Below are positions 3,501 to 16,115 of a stretch of DNA of 25,637 nucleotides, in pieces. This stretch comes from a virus: IMG/VR virus record IMGVR_UViG_3300037558_000322, positions 1 to 25,637 of that record. The stretch is one strand, 5' to 3'. A model generated the notes under the pieces. That model ran no database searches and had not been told where the DNA came from. It was given only the letters and a program-made list of their open reading frames with translations. Numbering within the stretch: the stretch's first letter is position 1; each line of letters opens with the position of its first letter. The position numbers were made by a program, and so were the translations under genes.

Positions 3501-4889
3501 ATCAAGAGCGAAGTTGTCCTGAAGGCAGCGAATGACCAGCTTGCCATCGAGCAGCGAACCGAAGTCGAACTCCTGAACTCGCATTACAAGTTCGCTGATG
3601 CCGTAGTCAGCCCAAGAGACCTTGAACACGTCACCGGGTCGAAGAGTATTGGCGTTCCGGTTCATTTGCAGCGTCATGCGGAACAGAGGCACTGAAAGTT
3701 GAGCACGCTCACGGGAGGCCAGCTTGTTCGCCAAGTTCTTATCGTAGCAGAATGGCATCGCAATCGTAGTGCTGCGAAGCCGCCCGACCATGCCAGCAGT
3801 CGCCATGTCCTGAGAAATAGCTACCGCGTCACTGTCCTTGTCGCGCTGCGGGAAGCTGATCTTTACTTGAGCCATGACTTCGTCCCAACCAGAGCGGGAG
3901 AAGTTTTCGATCTTGATGATGTCAGTCTCATCATAGATATCGAGTAGATCGACATCATAGTCATCACGAATGAGCTTGAAGATGATACGACCAGTGGCCG
4001 GATCTTGATAAGCAACACCGTCGATCTGACGCAGGATCTCTTCTACGACTTTCTTACCAGTTGCCTCGGCTGTAACCTGAACCGAAACACCATTACCTTC
4101 GTCATATAGAACTTGACCAATAGCCTGAAGTGAGGCGATATCAATCAAGGATGGTGCGATACCCAAGCCGCGCCAGTTATCGGTCATGATTTGATACAAA
4201 GCCTCTGCCGGGTTCATATCATCGCCGATGCGACCGTTGTTCACCAAGCCAAGGCCGTTCGTGTAGCATTCCAGAACGAACGCCATTTTCCGCAACTGAG
4301 CACTTTCACCAAGCTCACCGTCAAGGGAGATATGGGCTGTGCCGAGCATAGCCGGAACATTACCAACGCCGACTTGTCCTTCAATGATTGGGTCAACTGG
4401 CTGCTCAGCGATATCAAACGAGCCGGAATAGAAATTCCCGCCCATACTCATTGCTCCGCCTTCTTTGTAACCGCCAAAGCTGATGCCGATGCCACTGACC
4501 GCAGTCACGCCAGCACCGCTCGTCGTGCCAGTCCAAGCGATCTTGTCGTCGACGTAGACTTCTCGCATAACGACACCCGGCCCCATTGCCAGAGCAAGGT
4601 CCATCGTGAGGAAGTAACGGTGAGCGACAGTAACAGTCGTTGAACTGAAAAGGCCAGTCTTGATTTTCTCTCTAATCGGAACAGTTCTGAAATTACCATA
4701 CCAAGTCACGTTCGGAGCGACCATGCGAACCTTACCCAAGATGAGAGGGATAGGTGCATCTTCAGTCGCTCTTGGGAAACTGACATCATCGAGCGTCTGC
4801 GCACGCGCATTCTCAATTTCCGGTTTCGGAGCAAGTAGTGCCACCACGAGGAACGAGATGACGAATAGGGCGAGTGTGAACCAGATCAT
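510..4889 (-). CDS. J-like tail tip protein with lectin-like C-terminal domains
   Basis: This 1459-residue protein is probably the central tip/host-recognition protein. It opens with a hydrophobic segment (about 2-20, ending LLAPKPE) followed by SFPRATEDAPIPLILGKVR, typical of the J-like tail proteins that follow a BR0599-type hub. Residues up to about 550 carry the phage-tail baseplate-like core. Around 846-935 the motifs YTGPLIRIR, EQDVG, VTVYDQSG and WDGVDD resemble the domain often annotated in tail proteins as arabinofuranosidase B-like (GH54). About 1128-1235 is a beta-rich module with LNGNFVGYA. About 1246-1455 is a LamG/concanavalin-like domain with STSLLLDGTGD, TVEGHFRW, YRLYVDGV and GWIDEVKIY. 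The three C-terminal modules suggest glycan binding; I cannot show enzymatic activity. The start overlaps the hub stop by ATGA. Confidence 0.85.
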   Translation of the reverse strand: MIWFTLALFVISFLVVALLAPKPEIENARAQTLDDVSFPRATEDAPIPLILGKVRMVAPNVTWYGNFRTVPIREKIKTGLFSSTTVTVAHRYFLTMDLALAMGPGVVMREVYVDDKIAWTGTTSGAGVTAVSGIGISFGGYKEGGAMSMGGNFYSGSFDIAEQPVDPIIEGQVGVGNVPAMLGTAHISLDGELGESAQLRKMAFVLECYTNGLGLVNNGRIGDDMNPAEALYQIMTDNWRGLGIAPSLIDIASLQAIGQVLYDEGNGVSVQVTAEATGKKVVEEILRQIDGVAYQDPATGRIIFKLIRDDYDVDLLDIYDETDIIKIENFSRSGWDEVMAQVKISFPQRDKDSDAVAISQDMATAGMVGRLRSTTIAMPFCYDKNLANKLASRERAQLSVPLFRMTLQMNRNANTLRPGDVFKVSWADYGISELVMRVQEFDFGSLLDGKLVIRCLQDNFALDTVVFLPPPDSGWVAPIVDPQPIAVSDIIEMPRFFMNRLQFPIPDGNAGVIPMAIPPSTASSGFDLLAGDVSGDLDVREPQQVSYPASGTLLSGYDRLSGFSNGYDTVDGFTLINTYNAENFVAAGSEAEAKQGEVGLLYGNGEFMAFRGFIDNGNGSYTFSNIYRGLLGTSPKTHPIGTRFYQLTPDLYGLGTLDDLAEDDTLYYKLLDRVGPEAIDEAAIVEASQLMARWARRPQRVRNLQLDGNRTNIIINNSTGAVDLTFARSNREASEIAIETDPDQVPNISDALAENYDVQVYNNGILVPALGSVDNAGSPININFSATSLTGPGEIRLIAQWDYDAPIADVSNVDYAFLPVTFDQVILIAFADLWDTYGEFSPLNLKGVYGLRRRVSDYTGPLIRIRDDFDDSEQDVGQNEIGALASFTVTGNPYIVTVYDQSGEGLDVTAPTNADQPLLGAHPFRNGDYAMSWDGVDDILRGPTFNSASPNAHAIDRPMMWIGFYRTNNPSGNNEYLLSITHDVGENPALTPFAHTGFVHQNSTNAVVSTWNERDPFYVNGNLQLRGMIVYGEQDASNLGMYIPDYSGAKVIGTSLDWTVSDSSILDFSGVELKALEVGNRTDQALPFKHEIFEFGIAEKTLFTGTQATSFMNAMMKEALSRETILINDAVPSTTEWAQGGAYPASALNPDHEVYLAFYVDDETLTDVDLSFEFYDVDFVDEIGVYLNGNFVGYANTTSNNAWGSRQTFATQPVTFGWNIICVRQEQTLTFVWGVRSPQVASAVNSQKKLWASFEGADAATAYTERSYNKRSFTFVGNAQLDDAQKKFGSTSLLLDGTGDQVTLPNDADWQFGNDSFTVEGHFRWNSVAAATWLLANYSTGGNQRSWGLYWDGSDLRLVGSENGSTVVELVTPYTWTPTVNTWYHITGEFDGTTYRLYVDGVVVATGTTVRTLHNSTDLLRIGAAGGSSLLFNGWIDEVKIYKGKALYAGTMIANGSEF

Positions 4890-9944: not shown

Positions 9945-12900
9945 TTACCCCTGGACGATCTGTCGAACAGTGGAGGCGTTCCGCTGGATCATGTTGACCA
10001 CAACTGTTTCACCTTCTGCACCGTCGAATGCGTTAACGATGTCGTTTGGCGAGATGACTGCTGCTACGTTGGTCGTGTTATTGACCGTAGTGCTTCCGCC
10101 TCCGCCGTTCATGTTGTTCCTCTGTGCCGCTTGCTGACCCGGTGTCAGGATATCGACCCGCTCGTCTGGGCGCTTGTTGAACGCTACGACTTGCGAGTCG
10201 GTTGAACCAGGTCCAGTTGGGTTGATACTACCGCCACCAGCAAAGGATGGCAAGATCGAACCGCCCTGACTGAACCCAACAAGACCGCCGCCAGGAATGC
10301 CCAAGAAGCCACCAAGGAACTGGAGCAGAAGGCGCTGGGCTGCGAGTTTCAGAAGCTGAGCAAATAGGTCCTGGAAGAACTGCCGAATATTGAACTGACC
10401 AGTCTTGGCAAATTCGACGATTGCATCAGCAGCCTTGCCAGCCGCACCGACAACGAAGTTACCAAGCGTCTCGCCGAATTGACCAGCAGATTGGATGCTG
10501 GATGCAATGGCAGCGCGGAACCCGCCGCCGAGAGTATTGGCAGCGCGGTCAGCGGCGATCTGTGTCTCACGTAGCTTCGTGTTATACTGTTCGAGTGTGA
10601 TCGCACCTTCTGCGAACAGTTCGTTGAGCGCGGCCTGTGTGAACCTGAGAGTTTCCTGCGGTCCAAGGATCTCCTGGAGAACTTCACCTTGAATACGGCT
10701 GATTTCCAAGAGTTCAGTGGCGCGGGCAACCTGCTCCGCTTCAACAGCGGTCAGCTCGCGCTTGATAGCACGCTCGATGCTGAGAATGTTATTCGTGATC
10801 TCTTTCTGGATACCATACTGGCGTTCCAGTTCGATCTGCTGTTGAAGCTGAGCGAGTTCGGTGGCAAAGTCACGAGAGTTACCAGAGCCAGAACCACTAC
10901 CAGTTCCGCCAGCACTGGGACGATTTGGGTCGATCTCACTATCGGTGATATTACCTTCTTCAAGGCTTGCGATATTCTCACGAGCCCGATCAATGATCGC
11001 TCCACCGATACGTTCGGAAGCATCGATTATAGCTTGACCGGCTTCGCCAGCAAAGTTGCGATTATAGGCGTTGCTGAACTCTTCGGCATAGATTGTGCCA
11101 ACCTCACGAGCAGCACCAGTAACTTCACCACGGAAGCGATCAAGTGTGAGCCTACCATCTTCAATGAAACCGTCGAAGCTGGGTAACTCTGGAAGACCAA
11201 GATCAACGTTTTCAAAGGCAGTTGACATATCTTCGCCAACATTGAGCGCAATTCCTGGGAGAGTATTCAGAAGTCGTTTGATGCCGTTGACAGCATTGGT
11301 GAATGCGGCCAGCAGAACTCGACCAGCTTCTTCAGCAATAGCACGAATTGCACCGGGCAAAGCGTTGAAAGCATCGCCGATGAATTGCACAGCGTCGCGA
11401 CCAAATTGAACAATCTTGTCCATCGCAGAGCTGAAGAATTCAGGAATTTTACGAACACCATCGATGAAGCCATTCACGATGTTTTCAATAACAGTGAGAA
11501 TTCCATTCCTGGCGATATTCATGATATCGATCAAGGCAGCAGGCAGCAGATCCCATGCTCTGATCGTGCCGTTGACAAATCCGACAACAGTGCCGACAAG
11601 GCCGTTGAAGATGTTGAGGAAGATCTGCCCAAGACCGATAAGAACAGTATTCGCCACTTCACCCAAGGTGGTGAACGCTTCGGAGGCGAACGTGATCACT
11701 GGGCCAAGTTGCTCTCGTAGAGCTGAGACAACCCTACCAACCCACTCAGTGACGAGTTGGAAAGCAGCGATCGCAGCATCTTTGAAAGACACTACTCCAT
11801 CTTCAGTAACCTTGAAGCGATCACCTAGCGTGAACACGCCTACAGTCAGCAAGCCGATTGCTGTGATGACAGCGCCAATCGGGTTTGCAGCCATAAGCGC
11901 AAAGAGCCCTCTGAGCGCCCCTAGAGCCAGTCTGATGGCCCCTGCCAGCGTGGGGAAGGTAGCGGTAAGCCGTGCCACAATGCCGCTCTGAGCGGCCTGT
12001 GCTGCGGCCTGTGCTGCCGTTGCTTGTGCTGCCCTACTTTGCGCGGCGGTCAGCGCGGCGGTATTGGCCGCTTGAAGTCTGGTCAATGCGTTTACACGCG
12101 CCTGGGAAGTTGCCAGAGCCTGCTGGGAGGCTACCAGTCGACTGACAGCCGCTTGGTTAGAAATGTAGGAATTGGTCTCCAAATCACGTGCGCCCTTAGA
12201 AGCGAACGTGCTGCGGATTTGCTGAGCCGTTGCTGCATTCTCAGCCAGTTTTGCCCGAGCAGATGCAAGCGTCTGTGCGAGTTCTGCTTGACGAGCAGTA
12301 AGATCTGCCACACGACCAGCACGAGCCGTGGCTTCAACGGTAGCGGTGGCAGCGGCGATACTGCGATAACGAGTGAGAGCAACACCCGCATTCCTCACAG
12401 AGCCGACATAGCTGACGATACCTGCGAGCAGCCTCTGGGTGAATAGCCCAGTGAGAGCAACGGCAACTGCGCCGACAGCAGCGAGCAGAACATCGAAGTT
12501 CTCAGACAACTTGATGATCGCGTTTGCAATCGCTCCAGAAATACCAGTGAAATCGTCGAAGGTGTCGAGGAACTGGAGGAAGTTGGTCTCTGCGATCTGG
12601 AACGCTTGTTCAATCGTAGGCTGTGTCTCAGCAAACAATGCGGAGATATTGCCCTGTGCAGTTTCAATCGCACGGAACACAGTCTCGGCAGTCAGTTTGC
12701 CTTCACGGCCAAGTTCACGCAGCGTGCCACGAGTGACTTCCCCGAACTCGCCAGTCTGGTTCAAGTAATCAACGATGATATCAGCAACGGCAGGAAGCTG
12801 TTCAAGAACAGAACGAAGTTCGTCGCCAGAGAGACGATCGGAGGCGATACCTTGCCCAAGCTGAACGAGCGCAGCGTTGGCTTCTCGTGCGGACGCACCG

Positions 12901-13304
12901 GAGATGATAGCGGCTTGTTGGAGCGTCTCGGTCACATTCAAGATTTGCTGCTGTCCAACCCCGAGGTTTCGGGCCGACAGAGCAATTCGGTTGTAGACAT
13001 CAGCAGTAGCTTGGAAGCCAGTGCGCGATCGCCGAGCCACGTCGAAGAGTTCGGTCTGCACAGCTTCAAGGTTTGCCGTGCTCTCGGTGGTGAGACGGAG
13101 CCTGTTCTCCACGTTGGTCAGTGCGTCTGCATACCTCTGAAGCCCACGGGCGATACCAGCACCGCCAATGACGAACAGTGCTCGCTGAAGCAGAAAGATA
13201 CCACGGGTGGCCCGGTTCGCACTTTCACCAATTTCGTCGATGCGCCGCTTGATAACTCGGGCACCAGACTCTCGGAAGCGGACATTGACGTTCTCTGTGA
13301 CCAT
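9945..13304 (-). CDS. Tape measure protein
   Basis: The 1119-residue protein fixes tail length and probably is ejected with DNA. The N-terminal tape-measure domain is clear at about 50-230 (NVENRLRLTT, FQATADVYNRIALSARNLG, ANAALVQLGQGIASDRLSGDELRSVLEQLP in shorter pieces). Several hydrophobic segments lie in the 255-310 and 440-520 regions (ALGALRGLFALMAANPIGAV), Ala/Gln-rich helical stretches at about 310-450, and a glutamine/glutamate-rich helix at about 860-960. The C-terminus is Gly-rich (GIPGGGLVGFSQGGS, DILTPGQQAAQ) as is usual. With 0.15 nm per residue the tail would be about 165-170 nm. The gene follows the chaperone pair and the gp10-like gene, the standard order. The start has GGGGG nine bases upstream. 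Confidence 0.93.
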   Translation of the reverse strand: MVTENVNVRFRESGARVIKRRIDEIGESANRATRGIFLLQRALFVIGGAGIARGLQRYADALTNVENRLRLTTESTANLEAVQTELFDVARRSRTGFQATADVYNRIALSARNLGVGQQQILNVTETLQQAAIISGASAREANAALVQLGQGIASDRLSGDELRSVLEQLPAVADIIVDYLNQTGEFGEVTRGTLRELGREGKLTAETVFRAIETAQGNISALFAETQPTIEQAFQIAETNFLQFLDTFDDFTGISGAIANAIIKLSENFDVLLAAVGAVAVALTGLFTQRLLAGIVSYVGSVRNAGVALTRYRSIAAATATVEATARAGRVADLTARQAELAQTLASARAKLAENAATAQQIRSTFASKGARDLETNSYISNQAAVSRLVASQQALATSQARVNALTRLQAANTAALTAAQSRAAQATAAQAAAQAAQSGIVARLTATFPTLAGAIRLALGALRGLFALMAANPIGAVITAIGLLTVGVFTLGDRFKVTEDGVVSFKDAAIAAFQLVTEWVGRVVSALREQLGPVITFASEAFTTLGEVANTVLIGLGQIFLNIFNGLVGTVVGFVNGTIRAWDLLPAALIDIMNIARNGILTVIENIVNGFIDGVRKIPEFFSSAMDKIVQFGRDAVQFIGDAFNALPGAIRAIAEEAGRVLLAAFTNAVNGIKRLLNTLPGIALNVGEDMSTAFENVDLGLPELPSFDGFIEDGRLTLDRFRGEVTGAAREVGTIYAEEFSNAYNRNFAGEAGQAIIDASERIGGAIIDRARENIASLEEGNITDSEIDPNRPSAGGTGSGSGSGNSRDFATELAQLQQQIELERQYGIQKEITNNILSIERAIKRELTAVEAEQVARATELLEISRIQGEVLQEILGPQETLRFTQAALNELFAEGAITLEQYNTKLRETQIAADRAANTLGGGFRAAIASSIQSAGQFGETLGNFVVGAAGKAADAIVEFAKTGQFNIRQFFQDLFAQLLKLAAQRLLLQFLGGFLGIPGGGLVGFSQGGSILPSFAGGGSINPTGPGSTDSQVVAFNKRPDERVDILTPGQQAAQRNNMNGGGGSTTVNNTTNVAAVISPNDIVNAFDGAEGETVVVNMIQRNASTVRQIVQG

Positions 13305-13307
13305 TCC

Positions 13308-13760
13308 TCAGAACCCCCGGAACAGACGGAACCCACGGACCTCTGCCCGTGCCTCCGTGACAGAAGCTTCAAGACCGCCAGGAACGACAGCCTTTTGGAT
13401 ATAGTCTACATTATTGCTGATGAAGATACCTGTGGTCAGGCCAACACCGCTGATACCACGCACCGAATTGATGCGGGCGTTGCCAGCAGCGATCGCAGCC
13501 GCAGCATTGGCGCTTTCACCAATTCCTTGACCATCGGCCTTGGAACCTTTGGGATACGGGTTGTATGGATCGATCACAGCACGAGCAGGCGCACCGATAC
13601 CGACACGCCAGTTGGAGCGAGCCTTACCAGTGTCAGCTTTCGTATTGAGAACGAGGGAGCGCAGAGTTCGTTTCGCCATGCGCCGAACAAGCTCAGACGC
13701 CGAGTTCTCGAACTGCCTGCCACGGCGGCGGATATTTTTCGAGAACTGGAGCGTCGGCAT
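13308..13760 (-). CDS. HK97-gp10-like tail completion/minor tail protein
   Basis: The 150-residue basic protein has a helical N-terminus (SASELVRRMAKRTLRSLV) followed by KADTGKARSNWRVGIG, which is the signature stretch of HK97-gp10-like proteins, and a C-terminal strand FISNNVDYIQKAVVPGG. That family usually sits among the neck genes between connector and tail terminator. Here it lies after the chaperones and before the tape measure. Its start overlaps the T-frame stop (TAATG). Either the gene moved in this lineage or this copy acts at the tail tip side; I cannot decide from sequence. Confidence 0.7.
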   Translation of the reverse strand: MPTLQFSKNIRRRGRQFENSASELVRRMAKRTLRSLVLNTKADTGKARSNWRVGIGAPARAVIDPYNPYPKGSKADGQGIGESANAAAAIAAGNARINSVRGISGVGLTTGIFISNNVDYIQKAVVPGGLEASVTEARAEVRGFRLFRGF

Positions 13761-14089
13761 TACTTGTTCTTCTTTTGCATGTGCTTGATATAAGCTCTGT
13801 CCATTTCAGCGACGTGATGGTGCATCGCCGCCCGTTGATCATCATCTAACTCCATGAAATCGCTATATTGCTCAATAGCGAGCCACGGAATTGGACCTAT
13901 TCCAAACCCGCCGAGTGACCGTGACGAAGTAAGGTCCAGGAACCCGATGTAGTATAGCTCCAGCCCCGGCAAAATGCTAGGGGCATTTTCAATCCGATCG
14001 GGTAGAGGCAGGCCGCTCCTAACGGCCTGCTTGATGATCTGCTCCTCGATGTGTCCTTGCTCCATCTGGTATTCAAGGACAGCTACGAG
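13760..14089 (-). CDS. T segment of tail assembly chaperone GT (frameshift extension)
   Basis: The T frame is open from the slippery site at 14089 to a stop at 13760, adding 109 residues (LVAVLEYQMEQGH and onward) to the first 142 residues of G, for a fusion of about 251 residues. An internal ATG at 14065 could start a free 101-residue product, but I see no good ribosome site and the known biology of this gene pair favours fusion. The chain has the typical short helical pattern of tail chaperone T domains: LPGLELYYIGFLDL, IPWLAIEQYSDFMEL and DQRAAMHHHVAEMDRAYIKH. In lambda the T part recruits tail tube subunits to the tape measure. The stop overlaps the next gene by TAATG. Confidence 0.85.
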   Translation of the reverse strand, partial: LVAVLEYQMEQGHIEEQIIKQAVRSGLPLPDRIENAPSILPGLELYYIGFLDLTSSRSLGGFGIGPIPWLAIEQYSDFMELDDDQRAAMHHHVAEMDRAYIKHMQKKNK

Positions 14090-14514
14090 TTTCCCGCTTC
14101 TTCCTCGAGTTCAGCCTTGCGGAAGTTGGCAATGGAGTTCGCCTGTTCCTGAATGTCGATGAACAGGTTGGGCAGGTCCATGAACGCCTGACGAACAGTC
14201 TCATAGTTCATCGGAGCGATCTTGCCATCGCGCTGCTCGATACCCTTCTTCATCTTGCCGTCTTCCATGGTCTCCCAATCGAGAACGATGGTCTTGGCGT
14301 AGATGTCGGACATAATCGCGATGGAACGCTCGTTGGACAACGCTCCGGCCTGCATCGCCTTGCGAACAGGCTTGAGCGCCTTCTCGGCGTATTTCACGTA
14401 TTTCTTGTTGCCCTGACCAGCAGATGCGATCTTCACGCGGAAGTCGCCATAGTCGAGCCAGATGCCGGAAGTTTCGAGATCTTCGTCAGTCTCGAAGACG
14501 TCATACATACCCAT
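14083..14514 (-). CDS. Tail assembly chaperone G
   Basis: The 143-residue soluble, charged protein sits between tail tube and tape measure genes, the position of lambda G. It has a short beta opening (IWLDYGDFRVKIASAG), then helices (KYVKYAEKALKPVRKAMQAG, YAKTIVLDWETM, YETVRQAFMDLPNLFIDI) and an acidic C-terminal helix (FRKAELEEEAGNS) that overlaps the slippery site. These proteins coat the tape measure and are not kept in the virion. It would be made in excess over the GT fusion. A TGGAG ribosome site lies upstream of the ATG, and the start follows the tail tube gene's 3' hairpin. Confidence 0.88.
   Translation of the reverse strand: MGMYDVFETDEDLETSGIWLDYGDFRVKIASAGQGNKKYVKYAEKALKPVRKAMQAGALSNERSIAIMSDIYAKTIVLDWETMEDGKMKKGIEQRDGKIAPMNYETVRQAFMDLPNLFIDIQEQANSIANFRKAELEEEAGNS
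14089..14095 (-). promoter_or_regulatory. Programmed -1 frameshift site GGGAAAC
   Basis: The minus strand reads G GGA AAC TCG TAG in the G frame, a perfect X XXY YYZ heptamer placed one codon before the G stop. After a -1 slip reading continues CTC GTA GCT into the T frame with no stop until 13760. Lambda uses GGGAAAG at the same place in its G-T pair. No long stem-loop is needed in lambda and I see none here. Confidence 0.9.
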
Positions 14515-14546: not shown

Positions 14547-14568
14547 GACCGCTGCTTACGCAGCGGTC
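14547..14568 (-). terminator. Stop-codon hairpin at the 3' end of the tail tube gene
   Basis: A perfect 9-bp stem (GACCGCTGC with GCAGCGGTC) closes a four-base loop that reads GTAA on the minus strand, a GNRA-type tetraloop, and contains the TAA stop of the tail tube gene. No U-run follows, so it is not a classic intrinsic terminator. It may protect the upstream mRNA from 3' exonucleases or cause partial termination. Confidence 0.7.
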
Positions 14569-16115
14569 GGCACATAGTCAAAGTAAGTGATCAGGGCCGT
14601 GTGGTCCAGATCAGTCGAGACGTCCTGGCCGGAGGCCGCGTCAGTGGAGAGCGGCAGCGTGATGGGCTGGTCCACTTCCACGTTGAGACGTCCATCGCCC
14701 AAGGAGATCAGCGGCAAGTCCATGATGAGTGCCGTGTTGTCCTTGACGAACGAGATGTCCAGCGTCACGTCGGCGTTGGTCCGAACGGCCTGCGTCGCAG
14801 CCACGCTGGAGAAATACGCCGTGAGTTCGCCGGAGACTTCGAACGTGCCTGCGGTCACATCGAATGCACCAAGAACACCGACCGCCTTGTTGGGCGTGAC
14901 GTTGTTGTTGATGTTGATCGTTGCTTCCGTGACATACGCGAAGAGCGCCGTGGGTGCCTCGTCAACGTCCGAGACGGTCGCCAGCCGGATACGGCCGATG
15001 TCGCTCGAAGTGTTGTATTCGGAGGCAGCGGCAGGCTCGATCACACCAGTCTGCTTGGGACCAGTTGCACCGTCGCGCTGTTCGTTGTCAGTTGCCACGA
15101 AAGTGATGTCCACAGAGGCCAGATCAGCCTGCGGAATGTTGAACGCCACTTCGTTGGGAACAGCACCTTTCAGCACTTCAGACTGGATCTGTGCCGGGGC
15201 AGCATCGTCAGGAGCGCCAAGCGTCCGCTCGATGTTGTAAGTCCTGCGCTTGATGAGAGCACCAGTCTCGTTGCGAAGCACATCGCCGTAGAAGAGACGG
15301 ATGGTCTTGCCAGCGACACCAGCATCGGCCACCATTGCGGCATCAGACTTGTCGAACGTGATACCGTCGGTCGCAACCGCACGGATACGCTTGAAGCCGT
15401 TGTTCTCAGCATCGCCGAAAGTGTTGGCTGCGACATCGCCGCCGAGGTAGACCCACTGACCGGGGACGAGGCCCAAGGTGGTGAAGTCTGCCAGACCACC
15501 ATTCGAAGTCAGGCGAGGCAGGTTGCCAGTGACATCGATCACAGCATCTGCATCACCGAACTCGTAGCCAACCACCTTGAGGACCGCATTGGCCGGAGGC
15601 GTTTCATCAACGAGCTGACCATCAGCAACTTCCACCGAAGTGGAGGGAGTGATCGCAGTGACACGGTTGACAGCGTTGTTCGCTGCGTTGGCGAAGTTCT
15701 TGCCCATCACGAGGTTGCCGACGATGTAACCGCTGGTGTCAGCGATTTCATATTCGTCAGGGTTCGCGAGGTCCACGTCGACGAGCGTGACAGTTTCTTC
15801 TGCCTGCGCACGCAGATCGGCGAAGAACACGCCCTGCATGAGATCGGTCAGGTTCTCGTAAGTCAGGTTGTGGTTGAAACCACCAGACGCATTGAGGTCA
15901 GTGGTCACACCCTTGCGGCGCTGACGAGAGGGGTTGATGGGATTGGGTGCCACAGTGACGATTTCACCGCCGAAATCGTTGTAGCTGTTCGGATTGAGGC
16001 GCTTCCATACCGGAGAACCTCCAAGACCCCCTTCACCGGGCAGAAGGCCGAGGCTGGCTTCTTCCGCATACGCGAGGCCGGTGATATTGGAGTCGATCTT
16101 TGGGACCTGTGCCAT
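14556..16115 (-). CDS. Major tail (tube) protein
   Basis: The protein resembles the tail tube proteins of siphoviruses with a GTA-like architecture: an N-terminal arm (IDSNITGLAYAEEASLG), a loop with NDFGGEIVTVAPNPINPSRQRRKG, a helix ENLTDLMQGVFF, and C-terminal strands TFEVSGELTAYFSS and NADVTLDISFVKDNTALIMDLP. At 519 residues it is about twice the length of a simple tube protein. The extra middle portion (about 190-290: PGQWVYLGGD, FKRIRAVATDGITFDKS) looks like an inserted beta domain that would be exposed on the tube. An AAAGGAGG ribosome site lies just upstream, fitting high expression. A hairpin surrounds its stop codon. It directly precedes chaperone G. Confidence 0.9.
   Translation of the reverse strand: MAQVPKIDSNITGLAYAEEASLGLLPGEGGLGGSPVWKRLNPNSYNDFGGEIVTVAPNPINPSRQRRKGVTTDLNASGGFNHNLTYENLTDLMQGVFFADLRAQAEETVTLVDVDLANPDEYEIADTSGYIVGNLVMGKNFANAANNAVNRVTAITPSTSVEVADGQLVDETPPANAVLKVVGYEFGDADAVIDVTGNLPRLTSNGGLADFTTLGLVPGQWVYLGGDVAANTFGDAENNGFKRIRAVATDGITFDKSDAAMVADAGVAGKTIRLFYGDVLRNETGALIKRRTYNIERTLGAPDDAAPAQIQSEVLKGAVPNEVAFNIPQADLASVDITFVATDNEQRDGATGPKQTGVIEPAAASEYNTSSDIGRIRLATVSDVDEAPTALFAYVTEATININNNVTPNKAVGVLGAFDVTAGTFEVSGELTAYFSSVAATQAVRTNADVTLDISFVKDNTALIMDLPLISLGDGRLNVEVDQPITLPLSTDAASGQDVSTDLDHTALITYFDYVPTAA

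Follow-up and report, generated by a model that had tools for sequence, protein, structure and literature searches.

How the second of two overlapping reading frames is translated is the question raised by the tail region of this phage. The window, by which is meant the whole stretch of 25,637 nucleotides analyzed (positions 1 to 25,637 of the IMG/VR virus record IMGVR_UViG_3300037558_000322), carries a phage head-tail module on its minus strand. In this module, two open reading frames (G and T) are found between the genes for the major tail protein and the tape measure protein, the second in the −1 frame relative to the first and lacking a conserved start. The answer favored here, with a probability of about 0.94 as judged from the sequences, is that a programmed −1 ribosomal frameshift at a GGGAAAC heptamer yields a G-T fusion protein.

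The G-T Cassette and Its Slippery Heptamer

All genes of the cassette are on the minus strand. G (14083–14514) is an open reading frame from ATG to TAG, the normal translation product of which has 143 residues, and it is preceded by the gene for the major tail (tube) protein (14556–16115; Pfam PF18906 Phage_tube_2, 9.2e-31). Read directly, the 3′ end of G is GAA GCG GGA AAC TCG TAG, with the heptamer G_GGA_AAC (14089–14095) in X XXY YYZ phase one codon ahead of the stop. An open −1 frame extends from 14110 to a stop at 13760. Since it opens just 25 nt ahead of the G stop, a shift is confined to this short overlap, in which GGGAAAC is the sole slippery heptamer. The T segment (13760–14091) continues after the heptamer as CTC GTA GCT ... 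AAG TAA, with its first codon CTC at 14089 and 109 sense codons in all. Translation of the −1 frame starting at the heptamer gives GK-LVAVLEYQMEQ... to 13760; with AAC read as Asn, the fusion has 142 + 109 = 251 residues and the junction EEAGN-LVAVLEYQ. Direct reading therefore agrees with an earlier sequence-only reading of the locus, which had given the codons at the end of G and the phase of the heptamer, a −1 frame open for 109 codons to 13760, and products of 143 and about 251 residues with this same junction. The cassette does not directly adjoin the tape measure gene: a 150-codon gene for an HK97 gp10-like tail completion/Neck1 protein (13308–13760; PHROG 169, 2.4e-16; a weak match below cut-off to Pfam PF04883), the ATG of which overlaps the T stop (TAATG), separates T from the tape measure gene (9945–13304, 1119 aa; Pfam PF20155 TMP_3, 4.7e-51).

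It should be noted that GGGAAAC as a bare 7-mer is not rare, there being 5 copies in the window versus 2.7 expected. The 19 minus-strand open reading frames checked offer 7,675 in-frame positions. Canonical heptamers stand at 5 of these, and the class in which GGG or AAA is followed by AAAC or AAAG (G_GGA_AAC/AAG, A_AAA_AAC/AAG) occurs once among them, at the end of G.

Family Identity and Predicted Folds

G matches PHROG 313, "tail assembly chaperone" (1.7e-24), and the N-terminal half of PHROG 8233 (4.6e-9); T matches PHROG 3817 (1.7e-29), the C-terminal half of PHROG 8233 (2.3e-22), and Pfam PF23812 Phage_TAC_18 (6.7e-19; 68.2 bits with a cut-off of 27). PHROG 8233 consists of fused tail chaperones and covers G plus T as a single protein. 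At E ≤ 1 there were zero Pfam matches for G and PF23812 alone for T, and an Rfam search returned nothing at the same threshold. The predicted structure of G (pLDDT 86) matches those predicted for tail assembly chaperones of other viruses (best E 4e-12), the 262-residue tail chaperone of phage Loki being among the best fold matches (E 1.3e-9). Among solved structures, sequence searches with G, with T, and with a profile of G gave no match (those of G at E ~0.6 are chance), and the PDB fold search gave none either, so that the fold argument rests on the predicted viral structures. By analogy, G and G-T would function as tail assembly chaperones.

Conservation of the Heptamer

The named relatives are distant, with every match below 60% identity among 321 phage records. 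They are YuA-, Loki-, and PA73-like phages from the Mesyanzhinovviridae, Queuovirinae, Lokivirus, Septimatrevirus, Steinhofvirus, and others; relatives in IMG/VR reach up to 97% identity in G. The loci of two scans of IMG/VR, together with 23 GenBank records, provided 56 distinct G/T junctions, which were reduced at <90% identity to 46 non-redundant relatives. A heptamer in the correct phase is present in 46 of these 46 (GGGAAAC in 24, AAAAAAC in 22), a count that carries shared ancestry, the relatives not being independent observations. The canonical heptamer thus stays in frame near the end of G, 0–39 nt from the G stop, in relatives whose T is as little as 26% identical, and the check that the sequence-only reading had proposed, conservation of the heptamer in related phages, comes out in its favor.

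Intermediates between GGGAAAC and AAAAAAC were not seen among the relatives, and an AAG ending of the lambda or dnaX type was never seen among the junctions analyzed. The clade of the window holds both forms (10 and 9 of 19, respectively). Finding both side by side in one clade indicates that the switch occurred repeatedly, with the three leading bases changed each time. In the T alignment of this clade the heptamer's AAA codon never varies (19/19), and Asn 142 of G, decoded from AAC, is likewise invariant. Since Gly-Asn and Lys-Asn can also be written with other codons, conservation of the heptamer is not demanded by the protein alone.

One of the 56 junctions, shared by three contigs (L077, L078, and L081), is without either heptamer and has AAATTTG. 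There, A_AAT_TTG is found at about position 1426, where the −1 frame opens 21 nt ahead of the stop of the upstream frame, and it is possibly another shift site. Sulfitobacter phage M39 (PQ900653.1) has GGGAAAC at 1501 and at 1552, 51 nt apart and in the same phase; each copy directly precedes a stop in the 0 frame, and just the first is at the end of G.

Hairpins Downstream of the Heptamer

Folding of the window reveals a hairpin (hairpin 1; 14052–14081, minus strand) that was absent from the sequence-only reading. It has an 8-bp stem, UGUCCUUG/CAAGGACA, the first base of which is 7 nt past the heptamer. A codon-preserving null, in which each sequence was compared with 300 recoded versions encoding an unchanged T protein and no grouping by hairpin register was used, gave for the hairpin 1 stretch (nt 10–54 from the heptamer start) a mean z of −2.12 (sem 0.20, 46 sequences), with p < 0.05 in 30 of the 46 relatives and z = −2.38 in the window. 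In later stretches the mean z is −0.99 (nt 46–90), 0.10 (nt 91–135), and −0.34 (nt 136–180). Several distant relatives have no significant hairpin under this null; they may use something else.

Pair counts point in the same direction. In the subgroup with register 58, a 9-bp helix has 5 pairs changed on both sides, and its 18 double-changed cells compare with 7.3 ± 1.8 in shuffles (0/500 as high) and at most 5 in slid registers, it being understood that the alignments were grouped by hairpin register by eye, which favors the structure. In the subgroup to which the window belongs (register 59), pairing is seen in 95% of cells and the outermost pair alone varies, from U-A to G-C; because the arms are mostly invariant, covariation there rests on essentially one pair. 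Relative L055 and some others show yet another register. The hairpin is therefore kept while its bases and register change, and hairpin 1 is likely a 3′ stimulator of frameshifting.

A second hairpin, GCAGGCCG/CGGCCUGC (hairpin 2; 14008–14030, minus strand), has z = −4.13 for its stretch in the window under the codon-preserving null. In close relatives 84% of its cells are paired and its covariation score was unreached in 500 shuffles; the 9 double-changed cells in the window's clade fall mostly on one pair. Hairpin 2 appears weaker than hairpin 1 and is supported in the window's clade.

Alternative Explanations

T could be a separate gene that starts at the in-frame ATG at 14063–14065, where a gene caller would begin a 101-aa reading frame, with ribosomes reinitiating after the G stop 18 nt upstream. 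Most database records of the relatives call T in this way. Against it, the ATG is not preceded by a Shine-Dalgarno sequence and is enclosed by hairpin 1, and in many relatives this codon, T codon 11, is a leucine codon (CTC, TTA, CTG, or CTT). Indeed, across the relatives the first possible start of T lies anywhere between 9 and more than 200 nt inside it (more than 150 nt in several), and T has no start codon that is conserved. The codons ahead of the ATG are conserved as protein, and in the AlphaFold2 model of T (pLDDT 92.5) the first helix comprises residues 2–27, beginning at the shift site and not at the ATG, so that these codons are predicted to belong to the domain. An independent start at 14065 was rejected on these grounds; reinitiation would also leave the conserved heptamer unexplained, and we regard it as very unlikely.

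Even less probable is that the fusion arises through slippage of RNA polymerase rather than of the ribosome at the heptamer. AAAAAAC, found in about half of the relatives, is indeed a short run of A, which would suit such a mechanism, but GGGAAAC of the window has runs of three. Runs of three are too short for productive polymerase slippage. Moreover, GGGAAAC and AAAAAAC are interchangeable at this place, and a hairpin at ribosomal spacing fits translation. The frame break might finally be an assembly error or a mutation that disabled one former gene, for which the proteins spanning both parts in PHROG 8233 could be quoted; this is so improbable as to be nearly negligible, as the same break with the same heptamer recurs in independently assembled metagenome contigs and in complete isolate genomes from many genera. 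With a conserved in-phase heptamer and no conserved T start, comparison leads us to infer programmed −1 frameshifting. The G / G-T frameshift interpretation of the sequence-only reading accordingly finds support in the protein families, the gene order, the heptamers of all the non-redundant relatives, the missing T start, and the hairpin.

Annotation of T in Relatives

Among the 22 annotated relatives, the joined G-T gene is annotated in 2 (RcSimone-Hastad and RcHartney), T is absent from 4 (YuA, HD01, Pavpe01, and JWT), and T is begun at an internal start in 16; M39 is unannotated and stands outside this count. In the record of Achromobacter phage JWT (OQ938574.1) an open reading frame on the opposite strand (1638–2156) is called across the T segment, which is why T is missing there. 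It had been anticipated that calling T from its internal ATG misses the fusion, and these records agree: in 20 of the 22 the fusion is either truncated or not annotated at all, so that the databases hold truncated T proteins that start from unconserved ATGs.

A Codon-Frozen Element Inside T

T contains a further stretch, codons 37–48 (13987–13952, minus strand), in which the synonymous sites of AAT GCC CCT AGY MTT ... YTA TAC hardly vary. In the 19 T genes of the clade, the proteins of which are 52–100% identical, a 5-codon window gives an observed/expected ratio of ~1.7 (column-permutation p 0.002). The element occurs once per genome in 8 related genomes. It contains TAGYMT and TATACT 17 bp apart and looks like a putative promoter. 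A repeated promoter of the form CCCCTAG..TATACTA was considered and rejected: there are about 8 matches outside T, with varying spacings and some of them duplicated, which look like chance. Nor did inspection by eye support pairing between the conserved CCCCTAG in T and further conserved stretches. In YuA (AM749441.1), a fragment annotated by the depositors as a highly active −24/−12 promoter (3603–3763; 2000 MU) overlaps the end of the T frame, which that record leaves unannotated; it lies about 84 nt downstream of the equivalent of the codon-frozen element.

Comparison With Known Systems

The G / G-T frameshift is already familiar from many tailed phages, and Xu, Hendrix and Duda reportedly described this arrangement of frameshifted tail assembly chaperones in 2004. 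In lambda, the formation of gpG and gpGT by −1 frameshifting was shown experimentally; both attach to the tape measure protein, T makes contact with the tube protein, and the ratio is controlled (reviewed in PMC5009743). The window resembles lambda in that a short chaperone and its −1 fusion are encoded between the major tail and tape measure genes. It differs in the extra gene before the tape measure gene and in the heptamer, which in lambda is G_GGA_AAG (PMC7618472), so that the A site is read by tRNA-Lys in lambda and by tRNA-Asn here. Neither G nor T of the window has a match to the lambda G/T families in Pfam or PHROG, and membership of these families is not indicated. The designation "exact lambda-type" given to the cassette in the sequence-only reading is for both reasons not tenable. 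By analogy the cassette would work like that of lambda; homology to lambda G and T is unsupported here.

Closer counterparts are found elsewhere, and the same arrangement was already predicted for two phages. For Burkholderia phage KL1 (PA73-like), GGGAAAC was predicted right at the stop of the G-like gene (gp18/gp19), with a short product of 142 aa, a fusion of 264 aa, and a suggested stem-loop downstream (PMC3483164). KL1 has the same heptamer as the window and likewise a tail gene that separates the cassette from the tape measure gene, an extra gene that is also present in HK97 (PMC3483164); the KL1 stop (TGA) abuts the heptamer, whereas in the window one codon lies between them. In the covered portion of that report, no comparative test of the heptamer or the hairpin was found. 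For Acinetobacter phage Loki, a −1 frameshift was predicted at the stop of the G-like gene (gp12/gp13) (PMC5313236). Loki, too, has an HK97 gp10-like gene ahead of the tape measure gene (PMC5313236), and differs from the window in its heptamer, AAAAAAC as against GGGAAAC. In Yuavirus and its relatives (YuA, Bordetella FP1), G is ~40–42% and T ~41–49% identical to that of the window and GGGAAAC is in frame, the stop being 39 nt past the heptamer, which makes the overlap longer than in the window; the original YuA record leaves T unannotated. In the portions of the literature covered, comparative support for the site, a hairpin that covaries, and the restriction to AAC were not found; these would be the additions made here.

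Proposed Mechanism

Most ribosomes would translate G and terminate at TAG. In a minority, peptidyl-tRNA-Gly on GGA and tRNA-Asn on AAC would slip by −1 onto GGG AAA, aided by the hairpin that begins 7 nt downstream, and these ribosomes would continue in the −1 frame to give the 251-residue G-T. If lambda is a guide, G and G-T would coat the tape measure protein, T would recruit the tail tube protein, and tail assembly would be sensitive to the ratio of G to G-T.

In Escherichia coli, A_AAA_AAC is far less shift-prone than A_AAA_AAG (reviewed in PMC5009743), and the rate of frameshifting may therefore be low. It is possible, at about even odds, that frameshifting in this group always uses AAC (tRNA-Asn) in the A site and never the AAG of lambda, mostly together with a hairpin of shifting register 3–8 nt downstream, that the hairpin lifts a weak site to the needed rate, and that hairpin 2 contributes in the clade of the window.

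The finding is mostly an annotation matter. The pattern of GGG or AAA followed by AAAC at the end of G would provide a simple rule for correcting T annotations in these phages. And a hairpin that is kept while its register changes would offer a natural series on how the ribosome is tuned at a weak AAC slippery site.
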